Below are positions 1 to 6,679 of a DNA stretch of 64,000 bases, in pieces. Position 1 is the first letter of the stretch, and the number at the start of each line of letters is the position of its first letter. The notes below the pieces were generated by a model. That model was not told the DNA's origin and searched no databases. It saw nothing but the letters and a program-made list of their open reading frames with translations. The stretch spans positions 806,001 through 870,000 of the forward strand of contig NZ_FNKI01000001.1 in the NCBI RefSeq assembly GCF_900102925.1, written 5' to 3'. The translations under genes were made by a program, and so were the position numbers. The DNA is from Flagellimonas zhangzhouensis. GTDB lineage: Bacteria; Bacteroidota; Bacteroidia; Flavobacteriales; Flavobacteriaceae.

Positions 1-439
1 TTATGGTTATTTTTTTACTGTGTGATTCTGAATTGAAGTTAAGCAAAATTTTTTCAAGTCGTTCTACAGTAAGGCTTTTAGCGTTGTATTTTTTTATTTT
101 GGCGATGGTTACTTCAAGGTCGTCGGTGTCGATTGGTTTTAACAGATAATCGATAGCTTCGTTTTTTAAAGCTTGTAAGGCATATTGGTTATAGGCCGTT
201 GTGATTACTACAGGAAAATTTTTGTTTTTTAGGTTTTTGATGAATTGAAAGCCATCCATCGCAGGCATTTCAATATCAAGAAACAAACAATCAGGAGTAT
301 TGTGCTCCAAATATTCCAAGGCTTCACGTGCATCTGTAAAGGAAGCAATAATATCTACTTCATCACTTAAATTGGTCAATTCCCAACTTAAACTCTGTAG
401 TGCTTTGATTTCGTCGTCAACTATTACTGCTTCTAACAT
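1..439 (-). CDS. Response regulator receiver domain, probably LytTR type (partial, 3' end outside window)
   Basis: Only the first 146 residues are inside the window. They form a complete CheY-like receiver: acidic pair Asp8-Asp9, phospho-acceptor Asp55 in FLDIEMP, Thr80-Thr81 and Lys101 in LLKPI. The residues after position 110 (a charged linker) look like the start of the linker to a LytTR DNA-binding domain, the usual partner of this receiver subtype in Bacteroidota; that domain lies beyond the left edge, so the output type is inferred. It would take phosphate from a membrane histidine kinase not seen here. The start at 439 has a TAAATTTG -7 element 22 bases upstream. Confidence 0.85.
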   Translation of the reverse strand, partial: MLEAVIVDDEIKALQSLSWELTNLSDEVDIIASFTDAREALEYLEHNTPDCLFLDIEMPAMDGFQFIKNLKNKNFPVVITTAYNQYALQALKNEAIDYLLKPIDTDDLEVTIAKIKKYNAKSLTVERLEKILLNFNSESHSKKITI

Positions 440-468: not shown

Positions 469-738
469 GAATTAATCTTATTATAACACTACAATTATGT
501 GTTAATGGATATTTAACACGTATAACTGGTAAAAAATTCAAAATCAAGTGTTTTTCAGGTGTGACGCTGCATTTTATCCCATTGATTTAGGGGGGAAAGC
601 AAACTTTATGCAAAAATCAAAGACCAACTATACATAAAAAAGTACAGTTTATACATACCTCAAAAACCACCTTCCTTTTCTTGTCTATATTCGAGTTGTC
701 AAAAAATTAAGGTTTGTTCCTTATTTAAATAACCGACC
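469..738. other. Intergenic region, no gene recognised
   Basis: This AT-rich stretch separates the leftward response regulator from the small rightward ORF at 739. Apart from the possible -33 site at 492-494 and a TATATTCG sequence at 686-693 (one mismatch to TAnnTTTG, suitably placed for the ORF at 739), I see no coding or repeat structure. Confidence 0.4.
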
Positions 739-858
739 ATGAGAAAATGCGTTTTGCTTTTTTTGATTTTAGTTGTAGCGTTGGTTATTGCTGCCGTATC
801 CCAGACCAAAAGCGACAAGTTTGAAGCTGGTATGGAAAGGGTCTTGGTGAAAAAATGA
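739..858 (+). CDS. Small ORF, 39 aa, hydrophobic N-terminus, function unknown
   Basis: The ORF starts with ATG and encodes Met-Arg-Lys-Cys followed by about 17 strongly hydrophobic residues, then a short charged tail ending Lys-Lys. This could be a signal peptide or a single membrane helix. I do not recognise the family. It may be a tiny membrane peptide, the remnant of a longer gene that decayed, or chance. It lies directly upstream of the structured element at 886-1067 with no terminator between them, so the two could share a transcript. Confidence 0.3.
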   Translation: MRKCVLLFLILVVALVIAAVSQTKSDKFEAGMERVLVKK

Positions 859-885: not shown

Positions 886-1067
886 TTGTATTACCAAATA
901 AACTGTACGGCCACAGCAACCAATCATCTGATTGTTAAACCGCTTGCAAAATAAAATCTTCGAGACAGTTATGATCTGGATTCGATATTAGGTTTCGGGG
1001 GAACTACCTAAGTTGAAGAAAGATTTGGATTAACTTAACGGGGAGGCCGTACGCTTTGGTAATACAA
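886..1067 (+). ncRNA. Candidate structured RNA closed by a long nested inverted repeat
   Basis: Bases 886-898 are perfectly complementary to 1055-1067 (13 bp). Just inside, 905-912 are perfectly complementary to 1045-1052 (8 bp). Within the 132-base interior two more hairpins are visible, 921-934 (CAATC/GATTG) and 988-1011 (TTAGGT/ACCTAA). No reading frame explains the segment, and a terminator-like hairpin with a T tract follows at 1092-1127, which favours the plus strand. It does not show the landmarks of tmRNA, RNase P RNA or SRP RNA. It could instead be a short palindromic mobile element, but I see no target-site duplication. The identity is unknown. Confidence 0.4.
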
Positions 1068-1091
1068 CTTTGTATTTCGTCATACATTATA

Positions 1092-1127
1092 GGCCATGGA
1101 ATAATTACTATTGCATGGCTTTTTTAT
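1092..1127 (+). terminator. Rho-independent terminator candidate downstream of the structured element
   Basis: GGCCATG (1092-1098) pairs with CATGGCT (1114-1120) across a 15-base loop and is followed directly by a run of T. The loop is longer than usual, so the call is tentative. On the plus strand it would end a transcript covering 886-1067. Confidence 0.45.
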
Positions 1128-1356
1128 TTCTAATAAATCGACCAAAAACCCAACTGCGTTTTTGTGTACGCCTAGATGTCAACACCTTATGTTAAAAACT
1201 TTGGGCGGTTTTTAGTGTTAATTTTTTCATCATTTATTTCCATTTTTAAATCTTTGCCAAATCCGTTTCCAAAACACCAATATGTTATGAAATGGAACTC
1301 TTTTGTAGTTTGTGTTGAACTATATCAGCACGCGTGATAGTGTTTATTGATTTATG
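1128..1356. other. Non-coding stretch, no gene recognised
   Basis: I found no credible ORF on either strand. The only notable sequence is an 8-bp palindrome CACGCGTG at 1329-1336. The stretch is followed by a second plus-strand terminator-like hairpin, so a short untranslated transcript may arise here, but no promoter with a full TAnnTTTG match is visible. Confidence 0.35.
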
Positions 1357-1401
1357 CCTCGGAAACGTTCACCCCACACAAGAACCTTCCGAGGTATTTT
1401 T
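1357..1401 (+). terminator. Rho-independent terminator candidate with no gene upstream
   Basis: CCTCGGAA (1357-1364) is perfectly complementary to TTCCGAGG (1387-1394), and TATTTTTTT follows. The 22-base loop is long. No plus-strand gene ends nearby, so it may terminate a small RNA. Confidence 0.45.
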
Positions 1402-1434
1402 TTAAAATAAAAAACCCTCCAACTTGGAGGGTTT
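1394..1434 (-). terminator. Terminator of the GMC dehydrogenase / small-subunit operon
   Basis: AAACCCTCCAA (1412-1422) and TTGGAGGGTTT (1424-1434) form a perfect 11-bp stem; on the minus strand a T-rich tract follows. It lies 26 bases after the stop of the small-subunit gene that ends at 1460. Confidence 0.85.
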
Positions 1435-1459
1435 CTTGTAATTATCATAGGAGTCTTGG

Positions 1460-2113
1460 TTATATAGACCAAGCCTTTCCGCCTGTCAATGTCTGAAGGT
1501 CTCCACAACCGATGTACTCACCAGGTACAGGTAGATAGGCCAGAACCTCTTCACCAATATATTCCGATGATTTATAGGCCCAAGTGGCCAGATCTCTCAA
1601 TTCGGTCGCAAAGGAAAAACGGGAGATTTCCTCATCAAGGGTAGCAGCTCCACCTTCTTTGATGGCCTCCATGTAATTCATAATGGCCTCAAAGTGCAGT
1701 TTCTCTTCCTCATCGGAACGCTTTTTAAGATATGTCTGCAGAGCAGGCTCAATATCCGCAGCTTCGATGTCCATGAGTGAGGTCTTTCCAGAATCGGCAA
1801 GTACCTTGTCATAGAAGGCATCCATTTTCATCATTACAAATTCCCTTTGCTCCAACGGCATTACCTCGTCCAGATAGGCATCTATAAAGGTATGCACGTT
1901 CATTTCTGTTGCAGAAGGTGTATCGGTCTTTGGAAGGATCACGTCCACGGTCTGCGCCAGGGCATATCCTTTTTCCTTATCAAGGAAACTAGGGGTCCAT
2001 TCTGCAAAGGCAGGTTTGTCCTTACAGCTGTTGAGCAGTGACAATAGTGTTGGAGTGGCCACGGCGTACCCGAAGGCCATCCCCATATTTTTGAGTGCTG
2101 ATCTTCTTTCCAT
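1460..2113 (-). CDS. Gluconate 2-dehydrogenase subunit 3 family protein (small subunit of a GMC sugar dehydrogenase)
   Basis: This 217-aa protein is the expected partner of the GMC flavoprotein encoded just upstream (1-nt overlap, 2113). In characterised relatives (the small subunit of Burkholderia FAD-glucose dehydrogenase; LacC-type subunits) this family carries the Tat signal that exports the folded complex and stabilises the flavosubunit. Here the N-terminus has a twin-arginine pair (Arg3-Arg4), a hydrophobic stretch and Cys30 in LLNSC, so it could also be lipidated, although Asn at -2 is unusual in a lipobox. The rest is soluble and mostly helical. Substrate cannot be read from this subunit. 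Confidence 0.8.
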   Translation of the reverse strand: MERRSALKNMGMAFGYAVATPTLLSLLNSCKDKPAFAEWTPSFLDKEKGYALAQTVDVILPKTDTPSATEMNVHTFIDAYLDEVMPLEQREFVMMKMDAFYDKVLADSGKTSLMDIEAADIEPALQTYLKKRSDEEEKLHFEAIMNYMEAIKEGGAATLDEEISRFSFATELRDLATWAYKSSEYIGEEVLAYLPVPGEYIGCGDLQTLTGGKAWSI

Positions 2114-3831
2114 TATATGTTTCCTTTTTTAAGTTCTTGAACGGCGTGATTAGCTGCTCTTGCGGTAAACGCCATATAGGTCAACGAAGGGTTCACACAA
2201 CTTGCTGAGGTCATAAAGGCCCCATCGGTCACGTAAACGTTCTTGCAAGCGTGCACCTGGTTGTTACCATTAACCACGGAGGTTTTAGGATCACGACCCA
2301 TACGGGCAGTTCCCATTTCGTGTATGCCCAATCCAAGAGCGTAAGGTCTGTTAAATGCAACCACATCCTTAGCACCAGCTTTTTCCAACATTTGAACGGC
2401 TTGATCTTGCATATCCTTTCTCATGTTGTGTTCATTCTCTCCGATTTCGGCATCAAAAGTAACGGTAGGTAATCCCCACTTATCCTTTTTGTCGTAATCC
2501 AAGGTCATTTTATTATCGTGGTAAGGAAGTGTTTCTCCAAAAGCATTGATACTCATGTTCCAACCACCTGGGGTCAATACAGCATCTTTATAGTTTTTAC
2601 CATAAGCAGCTTCCGCAACCATTTCTTCGTAGTTACCTCTATTGGCACCACCTTGGTAACCATAACCACGAACAAAATCTTTCATATTGGAATCGCCACC
2701 CAAGTTTCTAAATCTTGGAATATAAACTCCATTTGGTTTTCTACCCTTGTAATATTTGTCTTCGAAACCGTCAAATTTACCAGATGCACCTACCAAGAAG
2801 TGGTGGTCCATTACGTTATGGCCCAACTCTCCAGAATCGTTACCCAATCCGTTTTCGAATCTGTCGGATTTCGATTGCATCAAAATAGAAGTAGAAGCAA
2901 TGGCTGAAGCACAAAGGAAAATTACTTTGGCCTTGAATACGAATTCTTCTTTGGTTTCTCTATCGATTACCTTAACACCTGTAGCCAATTTGGTATCTGG
3001 GTCATAAATTACTTCGTGAACAATGGAATCTGGTCTCAAAGTCATGTTGCCCGTAGCTTCGGCAGCAGGCAAGGTAGAAGAAACACTGCTAAAGTAAGCT
3101 CCGAAAGGACACCCTCTAATACATCTATTTCTAAATTGGCAACGCACACGGCCATCACCTTCAAACTTTTTATCACTGTTAATGTGGGCAACCCTACCAG
3201 CCGTTACAACACGACCACCAAAATTCTCGGCTACCTTTTCACGTACCAAACCTTCCACACAGTTCAACTCCATCATAGGCTCGAACTGTCCATCGGGCAA
3301 TTGTGGCAAACCAAGTAGTTCTCCAGAAACTCCGATGTAACTTTCTACTTTATCGTACCAAGGAGCTATATCTTTGTAACGAACAGGCCAGTCAACGGCA
3401 ATACCTTCATTCTTGTTGGCAGCAAAGTCAATATCGCTCCAGCGGTAGCTGTGACGCCCCCACATAATGGAACGACCACCTACATGGTATCCGCGCATCC
3501 AGTCGAAACGCTTGGTTTCATTGTAAGGATGATCTAAATCGTTTACAAACCAGTGTTTGGAGGCAGCACCTGTAGTATACCCTGTTCTGGATTGTTTTTC
3601 CTGTTGTTTCACATCTTCTCGGGTAGCTCTTCCTGCATGTGGAAAATCCCAATCGTCCATATTGGCCGTTGGGTAATCCTCACGGTGTTTTACCATCGGA
3701 CCACGCTCCAAGACCAAAGTCTTAAGACCGTTTTCACACAGTTCCTTAGCAGCCCAACCGCCACTAATGCCCGTTCCTACCACTATGGCATCATAGGATT
3801 CCTGTTCCTGGTTGTAATAAAATTTACTCAT
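2113..3831 (-). CDS. GMC family FAD-dependent oxidoreductase, probable glycoside/sugar 3-dehydrogenase catalytic subunit
   Basis: This 572-aa flavoprotein starts with a Rossmann FAD-binding motif (VVGTGISGG, residues 17-25) and ends with the GMC C-terminal domain, with the likely catalytic pair His504 (GIHEMG) and Asn547 (CVNPSL). A cysteine cluster Cys231-x5-Cys237-x3-Cys241 sits where FAD-glucose dehydrogenases of the gamma-alpha type bind a 3Fe-4S cluster, which suggests electron exit through iron-sulfur. It has no export signal of its own and would ride with the small subunit encoded next. In this locus, beside DUF1080 proteins and a Gfo/Idh/MocA enzyme, oxidation of a sugar to its 3-keto form is the best inference. 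No cytochrome c subunit is encoded nearby, so the electron acceptor is unknown. Confidence 0.85.
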   Translation of the reverse strand: MSKFYYNQEQESYDAIVVGTGISGGWAAKELCENGLKTLVLERGPMVKHREDYPTANMDDWDFPHAGRATREDVKQQEKQSRTGYTTGAASKHWFVNDLDHPYNETKRFDWMRGYHVGGRSIMWGRHSYRWSDIDFAANKNEGIAVDWPVRYKDIAPWYDKVESYIGVSGELLGLPQLPDGQFEPMMELNCVEGLVREKVAENFGGRVVTAGRVAHINSDKKFEGDGRVRCQFRNRCIRGCPFGAYFSSVSSTLPAAEATGNMTLRPDSIVHEVIYDPDTKLATGVKVIDRETKEEFVFKAKVIFLCASAIASTSILMQSKSDRFENGLGNDSGELGHNVMDHHFLVGASGKFDGFEDKYYKGRKPNGVYIPRFRNLGGDSNMKDFVRGYGYQGGANRGNYEEMVAEAAYGKNYKDAVLTPGGWNMSINAFGETLPYHDNKMTLDYDKKDKWGLPTVTFDAEIGENEHNMRKDMQDQAVQMLEKAGAKDVVAFNRPYALGLGIHEMGTARMGRDPKTSVVNGNNQVHACKNVYVTDGAFMTSASCVNPSLTYMAFTARAANHAVQELKKGNI

Positions 3832-3916
3832 TTATTCGGATTGTTTATTTGCTAAATGTATTAATTATTAAATTAATTTTCTACATTTAAACCCTATGTT
3901 TATTGAGAATTCAGCA

Positions 3917-3930
3917 CTATAACGTTATAG
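3917..3930. promoter_or_regulatory. Perfect 14-bp palindrome, candidate LacI-type operator
   Basis: CTATAACGTTATAG is a perfect palindrome centred on CG, the form typical of LacI/GalR-family operators. It lies between the divergent GMC dehydrogenase gene and the isomerase lipoprotein gene, and its right half touches TAGTTTTTG, a near match to TAnnTTTG for the rightward gene. No LacI-family gene is in the window. Confidence 0.5.
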
Positions 3931-3966
3931 TTTTTGAGTTCCACATGAAATTAACTAACTAAAGAT

Positions 3967-4965
3967 ATGAACAAAAGAAGTTTAGCGCAAAACAGCATTT
4001 TAAGCTTGATTGCGATCGCATTATTGGGAATCTATTCCTGTAAGCAAAATCCAAAGACAGAAAATACAGAGGAAACCACTGCCGAAGTTGTTGCTGTTGA
4101 AGAGACCAAACCAGACATTAAAATATCCCTGGCACAATGGTCCATGCACAAAATGATTTTTGAAGAAGGCGTTGATCCTTACACCTTTGCCGAAAAAGCA
4201 AACAAATGGGGATTTGACGGATTGGAATACGTTAGTGCCCTTTATTACAAAGAATTACAGGCAGCCAATTTTTCTGAAGAGGCCATGAACAATTGGGTGG
4301 CAAAAAGTAAAGCTGAAAGCGATAAATACGGAATGACCAATTTATTGATCATGGTAGATGGTCAAGGAGATATCGCGGTTGAAGATGCTGCCAAAAGAAA
4401 AGAAGCCGTTGAAAACCACTATAAGTGGGTTGATGCTGCAGCTGCTTTGGGATGTCACTCCATTCGAGTGAACCTGAATGGAAGTATGGATCCAGAAGTT
4501 TGGACGCCTTCCTCTGTTGATGGGCTTACCCAATTGGCAACCTATGCAAAGGACAAAAACATCAATATTATCGTAGAGAACCATGGCGGACCATCATCCA
4601 ATGCGAAAATGTTGGCAGAGGTTATGGATAAAGTTGGGATGGACAATGTTGGAACCCTTCCCGATTTTGGTAATTTCTGCATCAAAAGAGAAGCTGGAGA
4701 TTACTACTCCTCTAAATGTGTGGAAGAATATGACAAGTATAAAGGTGTAGAGGAATTAATGCCATATGCTAAGGGAGTTAGCTGTAAATCCTTTGATTTT
4801 GATGCTGAAGGAAATGAAACTACCATCGATTTTGAAAGAATGCTGAAAATTGTGGAAGATGCTGGATTTTCTGGATATGTTGATGTAGAATACGAAGGTT
4901 CCGAATTGAGTGAAGAAGAAGGTATCTTGGCAACAAAAAAACTGCTTGAAAGGATATTGGAATAA
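3967..4965 (+). CDS. Exported sugar phosphate isomerase/epimerase family lipoprotein (xylose isomerase-like TIM barrel)
   Basis: This 332-aa protein has a lipoprotein signal peptide with lipobox Cys25 (IYSC), then a linker rich in Glu and Thr, then a TIM-barrel domain of the AP-endonuclease-2 / xylose isomerase-like family. Motifs of the barrel include VENHGG, PDFGNF and VDVEYEG, which carry the metal-binding acidic residues. Such exported members often sit in 3-keto-sugar loci, where they are thought to act on keto-glycosides or ketoglucose in the periplasm; the reaction is inferred. It is divergent from the GMC dehydrogenase and heads a run of rightward genes (DinB, two transporters, oxidoreductase). 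Confidence 0.8.
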   Translation: MNKRSLAQNSILSLIAIALLGIYSCKQNPKTENTEETTAEVVAVEETKPDIKISLAQWSMHKMIFEEGVDPYTFAEKANKWGFDGLEYVSALYYKELQAANFSEEAMNNWVAKSKAESDKYGMTNLLIMVDGQGDIAVEDAAKRKEAVENHYKWVDAAAALGCHSIRVNLNGSMDPEVWTPSSVDGLTQLATYAKDKNINIIVENHGGPSSNAKMLAEVMDKVGMDNVGTLPDFGNFCIKREAGDYYSSKCVEEYDKYKGVEELMPYAKGVSCKSFDFDAEGNETTIDFERMLKIVEDAGFSGYVDVEYEGSELSEEEGILATKKLLERILE

Positions 4966-4987
4966 AAGAATCAACCACTAAAGGTCC

Positions 4988-5431
4988 ATGAAGGGATTTT
5001 TTCATGAACTGTTCGATTACAATTTTTATTGTAACAAAAAAATAATTCAGCAGTGTGGTGCTTTGGATAAGTTGCCTAACAACTGCGAACGACTTTTTAG
5101 TCACATTTTAAATGCCCATCATATCTGGAATCACAGAATGATGGGCATTCCGAGTGTGTTAGGGGTATGGGATTTACATTCTTTTGTTAAATGGGAAGAA
5201 ATCCACTACGAAAACCAACGCACTTCCTTTGAAATTGTCAGCAATACGGATAATTTTGAAAAAAGACTGGAGTACGAAAACAGCGAAGGGAGAGCCTTTA
5301 CCAATCAAATAAAGGATATTCTTTTTCATATAATCAACCACTCCACGCACCATAGGGGACAAATTATGATGGAAATGCGAAACGCAGGTTTTGTCCCAGA
5401 TCCATTGGATTATGTGCATTACAAACGATGA
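4988..5431 (+). CDS. DinB family protein (putative metal-dependent thiol-S-transferase fold)
   Basis: A 147-aa single-domain protein of the DinB/YfiT four-helix-bundle superfamily. The metal-binding histidines are visible as HHIWNH near residues 40-45 and HSTHHRGQ near 115-122, a pattern typical of DinB. Members are small cytoplasmic metalloproteins, some linked to bacillithiol or mycothiol chemistry; the actual reaction here is unknown. The gene starts 22 bases after the exported isomerase and ends 18 bases before the NHS transporter, so it is probably cotranscribed with the sugar genes, though no role in sugar metabolism is evident. Confidence 0.8.
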   Translation: MKGFFHELFDYNFYCNKKIIQQCGALDKLPNNCERLFSHILNAHHIWNHRMMGIPSVLGVWDLHSFVKWEEIHYENQRTSFEIVSNTDNFEKRLEYENSEGRAFTNQIKDILFHIINHSTHHRGQIMMEMRNAGFVPDPLDYVHYKR

Positions 5432-5449
5432 AAACTAACTCAATTAAAC

Positions 5450-6679
5450 ATGAATATTAAAACCAAATTCCAACTGTCTTTTATGATGTTCCTAGAATTT
5501 TTTATCTGGGGCGGTTGGTTCGTGACCTTGGGGACTTTCCTTGGGAACAATCTTGAAGCTACGGCTGGACAATCTTCAATGGCATTTTCAACCCAATCCT
5601 GGGGAGCGATCATAGCACCTTTTATTATTGGATTGATTGCCGACAGATATTTTAATGCCGAAAAGATTTTAGGTGTGCTTCATTTAATCGGTGCATTTTT
5701 AATGTATCAAATGTATAGCTCAACAGACTTTACCTCTTTTTATCCCTATGTTTTAGGGTATATGATTTTGTATATGCCAACATTGGCTTTGGTAAATTCC
5801 ATTTCATTCAACCAAATGAAAGATCCCGCAAAGGAATTTTCGAACATTCGTGTGTTTGGAACCATCGGTTGGATCTTGGCAGGATTGGTGATCAGCTACG
5901 TTTTTGTTTGGGATTCACCAGAGGCTTTAGGAGCAGGAATGTTGAAGAACACCTTTTTAATGGCAGGAATCGCTTCTGCTATTTTGGGAGTTTTCAGCTT
6001 TACATTGCCAAAAACACCACCAACAGTTGATAAAAGTGAAAAGGTGACCATTTCGGATATGTTGGGCTTGGATGCCTTAAAATTGTTGAAGGATAAAAAC
6101 TTCTTGGTTTTCTTCATTTCATCCGTTTTAATCTGTATTCCATTGGCTTTTTACTATCAGAATGCAAACCCTTTCTTAGCGGAAATCGGATTGGCAAATC
6201 CAACAGGTAAAATGGCCATTGGTCAAATTTCAGAAGCCTTGTTCATTCTTGCTTTACCATTTTTCTTTACCAAATTCGGATTTAAGAAAACCATATTGGT
6301 AGGAATGTTGGCTTGGACAGTTCGTTACTTGTTGTTTGCCTATGGTAATGCAGGCGAACTTTCCTTTATGTTGATCATGGGAATTGCATTGCACGGAATC
6401 TGTTATGATTTCTTCTTTGTATCTGGACAGATCTATACCGATACCAAAGCGGGTGAAAAATATAAAAGTGCTGCCCAAGGTTTGATCACATTGGCCACGT
6501 ATGGAGTGGGAATGTTGATTGGATTCTGGATTGCGGGAAAAATCACAGATTCACTTACTTTGGAGGATGGAACTCACGCTTGGGAAAGCATTTGGATTTA
6601 TCCATCCGCATTTGCAGCAGTAGTATTTATATTGTTTGCATTGATCTTTAAAAATGAAAAAGTAGAATACAAATCATAA
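5450..6679 (+). CDS. MFS transporter of the nucleoside:H+ symporter-like family
   Basis: This 409-aa protein consists of about twelve hydrophobic segments and starts with FMMFLEFFIWGGWFV, characteristic of the NupG/XapB-like nucleoside:proton symporter family. In Bacteroidota many members of this family sit beside carbohydrate genes, and the substrate is not necessarily a nucleoside. Given the neighbours, uptake of a sugar or keto-sugar across the inner membrane is plausible but only inferred. It precedes a second carrier gene by 50 bases. Confidence 0.8.
   Translation: MNIKTKFQLSFMMFLEFFIWGGWFVTLGTFLGNNLEATAGQSSMAFSTQSWGAIIAPFIIGLIADRYFNAEKILGVLHLIGAFLMYQMYSSTDFTSFYPYVLGYMILYMPTLALVNSISFNQMKDPAKEFSNIRVFGTIGWILAGLVISYVFVWDSPEALGAGMLKNTFLMAGIASAILGVFSFTLPKTPPTVDKSEKVTISDMLGLDALKLLKDKNFLVFFISSVLICIPLAFYYQNANPFLAEIGLANPTGKMAIGQISEALFILALPFFFTKFGFKKTILVGMLAWTVRYLLFAYGNAGELSFMLIMGIALHGICYDFFFVSGQIYTDTKAGEKYKSAAQGLITLATYGVGMLIGFWIAGKITDSLTLEDGTHAWESIWIYPSAFAAVVFILFALIFKNEKVEYKS

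Follow-up and report, generated by a model that had tools for sequence, protein, structure and literature searches.

In Flagellimonas zhangzhouensis, a structured RNA whose two long-range helices are supported by compensatory base changes among related genomes lies just downstream of a small ORF under purifying selection, in the neighborhood of a gene encoding a LytTR response regulator. We consider that this is probably a riboregulator locus under the control of a LytTR two-component system, and that its RNAIII-like transcript would supply both a small peptide and a trans-acting RNA. As for a LytTR-dependent transcript, a regulator with receiver and LytTR domains is adjacent and two direct half-sites lie upstream of the predicted promoter; as for RNAIII, a peptide ORF under selection stands beside a structured RNA. 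The window, namely the whole stretch of 64,000 nt that was analyzed (contig NZ_FNKI01000001.1, positions 806,001 to 870,000), had been the subject of a preliminary description, in which positions 886-1067 were picked out as a candidate new structured RNA. That reading is now supported by folding, by homologues with covariation and by the absence of an Rfam match, and what the description did not contain, namely the small ORF next to the RNA, the direct repeat with its 21-bp spacing and the link to the LytTR two-component system, seems to us the more interesting part. Positions of all the features are collected in Table 1.

Table 1. Features of the locus, in coordinates of the window
Feature	Position	Strand	Remarks
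LytTR response-regulator gene, N-terminal part	2-439	-	244 aa in full; extends past the window start
Two direct half-sites, CCAACTATACA (624-634) and CAGTTTATACA (645-655)	624-655	+	21 bp start to start
-7-like box TATATTCG	686-693	+	resembles Bacteroidetes TAnnTTTG
39-aa ORF	739-858	+	MRKC..., then a hydrophobic stretch
Structured RNA core	886-1067	+	fold energy, conservation, covariation
P1 outer helix, 5′ arm	889-898	+	pairs with 1055-1064; in the window reaches 886/1067
P1 outer helix, 3′ arm	1055-1064	+	covariation
P2, 5′ arm GTACGGCC	905-912	+	covariation
P2, 3′ arm GGCCGTAC	1045-1052	+	covariation
P3 hairpin (GCAA/TTGC, CAATC/GATTG)	916-947	+	genus-level sequence conservation
P4, 5′ side TCTTCG	957-962	+	pairs with 1039-1044; base of variable arm
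P5 hairpin TTAGGTTTCGGGGGAACTACCTAA	988-1011	+	GGGG loop, CU bulge
Intrinsic terminator hairpin and T tract	1091-1125	+	folding

Fold and covariation of the RNA

The inverted repeat itself is as it had been described: the 13-nt arms at 886-898 and 1055-1067 pair perfectly, the 8-bp arms of P2 are present with 132 nt between them, and both inner hairpins, here called P3 and P5, are found. Random sequence was claimed to give such a fold rarely, and indeed the + strand of 886-1067 folds at -53.8 kcal/mol while dinucleotide shuffles of the segment (n = 200) fold at -35.7 ± 3.6 kcal/mol (z = -5.04), none of them as well as the real one. The wider segment 870-1130, for which a comparison with shuffled controls had been advised, gave z = -4.52, again with 0 of 200 shuffles as good. 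It should be added that the reverse strand of 870-1130 folds almost equally well (z = -4.58), and therefore the energy leaves the strand undecided; the + strand follows from the T tract of the terminator and from the orientation of both the conserved ORF and the promoter-like box. The covariance model introduced below gives a higher score on the sense strand, which was set aside as evidence on this point because the model had been built from the sense strand. As for the earlier statement that no ORF explains the segment, none of 30 aa or more overlaps it on the + strand; on the - strand, its first 34-42 nt are shared with two ORFs of 44 and 52 aa. The terminator-like hairpin with a T tract noticed on its 3′ side is real: 1091-1121 folds at -14.2 kcal/mol (z = -4.44). 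This hairpin is absent from the list of a simple terminator scan. In genus loci, among the matches listed, the RNA is followed by a comparable hairpin and a T tract.

Compensatory changes, proposed earlier as a test of the fold, were found on both sides of the two long-range helices, P1 and P2. They were counted in two alignments, A3, which was fitted by the model, and A4, which was made by sequence only because the alignment of A3 leans on structure. A3 (41 loci) contains 139 two-sided cells against 41.2 ± 6.4 in shuffled controls and at most 43 with slid partners, and A4 (33 loci, 8 from the genus and 25 others) contains 86 against 30.0 ± 7.1 and at most 28, the ends of the loci from other genera being set by the model in both. 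In A4, two-sided changes occur in six of the nine pairs of P1 and in five of the eight pairs of P2, 99.2% of the P2 cells are paired, and the covariation of both helices includes G-U pairs. For P4, in the structure-fitted alignment, 80.7% of cells are paired and all five counted pairs are two-sided. Covariation in P5 is informative for the outer pairs only, because its inner stem and loop are nearly invariant, the invariance extending over a core of 19 nt (991-1009) in stem as well as loop. P3 is conserved in the genus, and the loci read in other genera have other hairpins instead; neither P3 nor much of the variable arm is conserved outside the genus. When the genus alignment alone was given to RNAalifold, 24 pairs were predicted, 3 of them two-sided, with P2 invariant and P1 unpredicted, so that other genera were needed.

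The alignments were composed as follows. A1 consisted of 41 of the 50 genus loci after near-identical ones had been removed by eye, and A2, which contained antisense matches, was excluded from the counts. For A3, 42 loci (17 from the genus, 25 from elsewhere) were put in and 41 returned, L084 being under the cut-off, and three of the 28 other-genus loci (L059, L066, L083) were left out of A3 and A4. An additional helix proposed by eye, AAACC (936-940) with GGTTT (991-995), was dropped, as it is nearly invariant and is broken in L039.

Could the inverted repeat be a product of chance, or an element acting at the DNA level such as a protein-binding cruciform, with no function as RNA? The good folding of both strands speaks for it. 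However, G-U pairs take part in the covariation of P1 and P2, and the segment belongs to a directional unit, with a promoter-like box and a terminator, which is conserved across genera. We regard this explanation as very improbable.

The RNA also stands apart from known families. The Rfam search that had been recommended gave no Rfam 15 family at gathering score in the window, in agreement with the earlier opinion that the RNA does not look like RNase P RNA, SRP RNA or a known riboswitch, and there was no match at that score in 10 loci of the genus and 20 of other genera. With a relaxed threshold only weak matches appeared, the best being trpB RF04312 (27.4 against 59 bits, at 1059-1130). tmRNA, which had likewise been discounted, was rejected since ARAGORN called no tRNA or tmRNA gene in the window. 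The flavobacterial 6S-Flavo RNA (RF01685) has long-range closing pairs, as has the window RNA, but the only match to it in the genome lies elsewhere (G000:C8:459976, 99.1 bits), and 6S RNA was rejected, too. RNAIII is 514 nt long and has an Rfam entry, while the RNA here is about 180 nt with no Rfam family at gathering score, and RNAIII is absent among the weak matches. In the open-access literature that was searched, no description of this RNA was found.

Occurrence in relatives and the neighboring genes

The RNA exists in a single copy in its own genome, and the search in related genomes, also suggested in the preliminary description, placed it in at least 69 of the 71 genus genomes, as well as in many related genera of Flavobacteriaceae. 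BLASTN detects it in 66 of the 71, with one RNA locus each; in G056 there is a second match of 51 nt, to the 3′ part of the query. Among the genomes missed by BLASTN, G005, G053 and G054 have the exact P5 motif with recognizable P2 arms on its flanks, G062 has a varied hairpin between its two 8-nt P2 arms, and in G057 (83% complete) the P5 motif was not found. A covariance model of 41 genus loci, built on the RNA only and free of information on neighbors, was run on 299 genomes of the family; at E ≤ 0.001 it matched 31, of which 29 belong to other genera. Twenty-eight of these 29 matches were examined, and all 28 are flanked by the same LytTR regulator gene. The exact P5 motif is found in 40 of the 299 family genomes, once in each (reversed control, 0), and in none of 135 genomes of the other families of the order; in an order-level set, it occurs in 4 of 158 genomes, all four belonging to its own family.

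A scan of GTDB yielded at least 119 stretches with the P5 motif, and in 96 of the 119 the regulator was found in the surrounding DNA, among the matches listed. As for the other 23, again among the matches listed, 22 extend for less than 1.5 kb on the upstream side of the motif, and distances from the regulator to the motif reach 1.53 kb. L134, from Pricia, covers 2.1 kb upstream and has no regulator within its 8 kb; nor has L151, also from Pricia, within its 8 kb. One stretch from a Chloroflexi MAG (L091), which has the motif only, scores 15.9 bits and covers less than 1.5 kb upstream, was taken as a chance match; the bit-score comparison including it comprised 36 of the 119 motif loci and 10 other loci. 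Viral contigs gave no match to a two-part pattern.

In which genomes do the RNA and the regulator part? Ten genomes of the clade have a regulator at least 74% identical and no hit of the model; seven of them have the exact motif, and the 21-bp pair lies near the regulator in nine of the ten stretches. The remaining three are a contig end, G150 and G205, the last of which has no motif. G205 possesses the 74%-identical regulator and the 21-bp pair, and its sole one-mismatch motif site is elsewhere, without the repeat and without the helices. In G150 (L265), the RNA is about 490 kb away from the regulator, and the 21-bp repeat, an MxKC ORF and the RNA with P1, P2 and P5 are found together behind a gene whose identity as HflX was confirmed by a test. 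The same arrangement is present in G358 (L266), of the same genus as G150, with no regulator among the large ORFs of 4.5 kb. Such grouping is what would be expected if the repeat, the ORF and the RNA form a functional unit on which the regulator acts in trans.

On the downstream side, nrdB, encoding the ribonucleotide reductase small chain, and nrdA follow the RNA in part of the genus (L033, L044 and L054 were compared with positions 1070-6000 of the window; the readings as NrdB and NrdA were confirmed by a test). As nrdB is about 500 nt downstream in that part of the genus and is also present in the surrounding DNA of 17 of the 28 other-genus loci, the RNA could be imagined as a cis-regulatory leader, a riboswitch-like attenuator acting on the gene that follows, which in many relatives is nrdB. 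But a terminator follows the RNA, the next genes of the window are different ones on the opposite strand, and the relocated unit has other neighbors; a leader of this kind appears scarcely credible, and an nrdB attenuator was rejected. In the window and some relatives, the downstream genes, on the opposite strand, are those for Gluconate_2-dh3 and oxidoreductase proteins, and the difference in downstream genes corresponds to a rearrangement whose edge lies after the RNA. Sequence similar to CTAGATGTCAACACCTTATGTTAAAAACTTTG, at about 1173-1205 of the window, recurs on the 3′ side of the RNA in several loci of the genus, among the matches listed.

The upstream repeat and the small ORF

Half-sites of LytTR regulators are typically about 21 bp apart, and the pair at 624-655 has this spacing. 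Within the window it is the only match to the repeat with up to two mismatches, where 0.02 are expected, and in the whole genome of the organism it is the only one with up to one mismatch. We thus regard it as a candidate LytTR box and, judged from the sequence, as the apparent sole genomic site of the regulator. A 21-bp-spaced pair in slightly relaxed form accompanies the RNA in all 50 genus loci, and 41 of them have the strict TATACA/TATACA. In a genus sample of 70 genomes, 65 have a match to the repeat, and when the positions were compared by hand with those of the RNA, 64 of the 65 had it at the RNA locus, the exception being G061; some genomes have one or two extra one-mismatch sites, and G043 has one extra exact site. 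The genomes without a match are G005, G022, G057, G066 and G067, among which G022 (L047), G066 (L041), G067 (L049) and also G005 have the relaxed pair at the locus. Downstream of the repeat, TATATTCG resembles the -7 box of Bacteroidetes, given as TAnnTTTG (PMC9723704), and in the ten genus loci inspected a comparable box occupies a comparable position. If it serves as a -7 box, transcription is predicted to start near 700, which would place the center of the repeat near -60. The promoter-proximal repeats bound by AgrA are described as centered at about -60 as well (PMC4227749).

The regulator in its full length contains Response_reg and LytTR domains above the Pfam cut-off, and the next gene encodes a sensor with TPR and His_kinase (PF06580) domains. 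The unit of repeat, box, ORF, RNA and terminator runs divergently from these regulator and histidine kinase genes.

An ORF that begins with M-R/K-K-C and continues into a hydrophobic stretch is found just upstream of the RNA in all 50 genus loci; it encodes 39 aa in 44 of them and 40-44 aa in the other six, and its stop codon is 28-59 nt from the P2 arm. It is under purifying selection, the median dN/dS being 0.198 in its own frame and 0.749 and 1.383 in the two alternative ones (of 1225 pairs, 694 were usable in the first case and 1185 and 1166 in the others, after exclusion of saturated pairs and those with dS ≤ 0.1). The product has no Pfam match and is predicted to be a small membrane or secreted peptide.

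Is the RNA then simply a 3′-UTR element of the peptide mRNA, which affects its stability, translation or localization and has no targets of its own? The ORF and the RNA do accompany each other, both in all 50 genus loci examined and in G150, where the unit is relocated. On the other hand, the short gap of the genus widens to about 160 to several hundred bases in other genera, and in L268 (G355) a 185-aa ORF is interposed between the small MKKC ORF and the RNA; for this reason the RNA could even have its own promoter, separate from the ORF. Moreover, in G062 (L316, G062:C21:4400-6400) the regulator, the repeat, the RNA and nrdB are present with no MxKC ORF in the 146 nt between the repeat and P2. 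This single weak case, in a fragmented assembly where the absence may be a true loss or an assembly fault, suggests that the RNA can persist without the peptide. The loci read in sister clades, described below, likewise show a compact RNA candidate with no small MxKC-type ORF. A mere 3′-UTR element is, in our opinion, quite unlikely.

Proposed mechanism and comparison with other riboregulators

How would a riboregulator under LytTR control work here? From the domains, the TPR-repeat sensor kinase is supposed to phosphorylate the LytTR response regulator, which, from the sequence and position of the direct repeat, would bind there and activate a weak promoter. A transcript of roughly 430 nt, if the ORF and the RNA are co-transcribed, would encode the membrane peptide and carry the structured RNA, in which the two long-range helices would close the molecule and present the nearly invariant G-rich P5 hairpin, and it would end at the predicted intrinsic terminator. 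Most likely, the RNA would be a trans-acting effector, either by pairing or by binding a protein via the G-rich hairpin, and such a mode would resemble that of RNAIII of Staphylococcus aureus acting for AgrA.

In the organism's own genome, extended complements of the P5 loop show no enrichment (16 sites, the locus included, against 21 for the reversed control), so that the function would fall to a short seed, to a protein partner or to some other region of the RNA. The second of these corresponds to an RNA that titrates or recruits a protein via P5, in the manner of 6S or CsrB, instead of pairing with mRNAs. Besides the lack of enrichment, the near-invariance of 19 nt of P5 in both stem and loop, beyond what pairing alone needs, points in this direction; against it, each RNA has a single copy of the hairpin, and no protein is known. 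Such exclusive protein binding seems unlikely to us, though not so far-fetched, and the trans-acting effector of a LytTR-controlled locus, with pairing among its possible modes, is the reading retained.

The likeness to P3 and RNAIII of S. aureus agr, as they are described in PMC4227749, lies in the LytTR regulator, in the two direct repeats near -60 of a divergent promoter, and in one transcript, here proposed from the arrangement, that combines a small peptide ORF with a regulatory RNA. The differences are as clear: no agrB- or agrD-like gene was recognized by eye among the adjoining ORFs, the kinase is of the TPR/His_kinase type, and the peptide consists of a single hydrophobic MRKC segment with no Pfam match. 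On the targets of LytTR regulators in Bacteroidota, the open-access literature that was searched offered little. A single predicted site ahead of a peptide gene and of an RNA outside Rfam would make a directly testable pathway, and this in cultivable marine genera, namely Maribacter, Zobellia, Robiginitalea, Flagellimonas and Arenibacter.

The regulator extends further than the RNA of the window. In genomes whose regulator is 60-70% identical, the 21-bp pair is found in 8 of 10, and most such loci read have a hairpin GTGATCGTGGGGATTCAC, a hairpin GATTAAATGCTATTAATC and then a terminator-like hairpin. This compact three-hairpin candidate RNA of sister genera lies behind a 21-bp repeat and beside the orthologous regulator in L244-L249 and L254-L264, and nine such loci gave no Rfam match at gathering score. 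Its exact core occurs in 11 of the 299 family genomes, none of which has the motif of the window type; the regulator is its neighbor in 10 of the 11 and the 21-bp pair in 9. A hairpin loop containing GGGGA is common to both types of RNA.

A described RNA of the family comes to mind here. Rfp18 is an sRNA of F. psychrophilum with a strong predicted structure and conservation in its genus, a likeness that it shares with the window RNA; in its deletion mutant, the mRNAs of two metalloproteases are reduced, and pairing with protease mRNAs is predicted for its third stem-loop (PMC9723704). A third stem-loop would suit the three-hairpin candidate of the sister clades better than the RNA of the window, and the sister RNA may be the Rfp18 of Flavobacterium. 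It is conceivable, although we hold it as a tentative and somewhat doubtful reading, that a dedicated LytTR system of Flavobacteriaceae has kept its sensor, regulator and box, with the RNA locus as its main or only direct output, that the RNA effector has been exchanged or rebuilt across clades, being a structured RNA with a peptide ORF in that of the window and an apparently unrelated compact RNA in the sister clades, and that a counterpart of agr/RNAIII has evolved independently in Bacteroidota. An operator conserved in this way, with a different type of RNA behind it, would offer a natural experiment on the evolution of riboregulators. In many of the sister loci, the compact RNA is followed by another conserved stretch, TTTTAGTTAGTTTAGTTAATTATTGGGG, which has a terminator-like hairpin.
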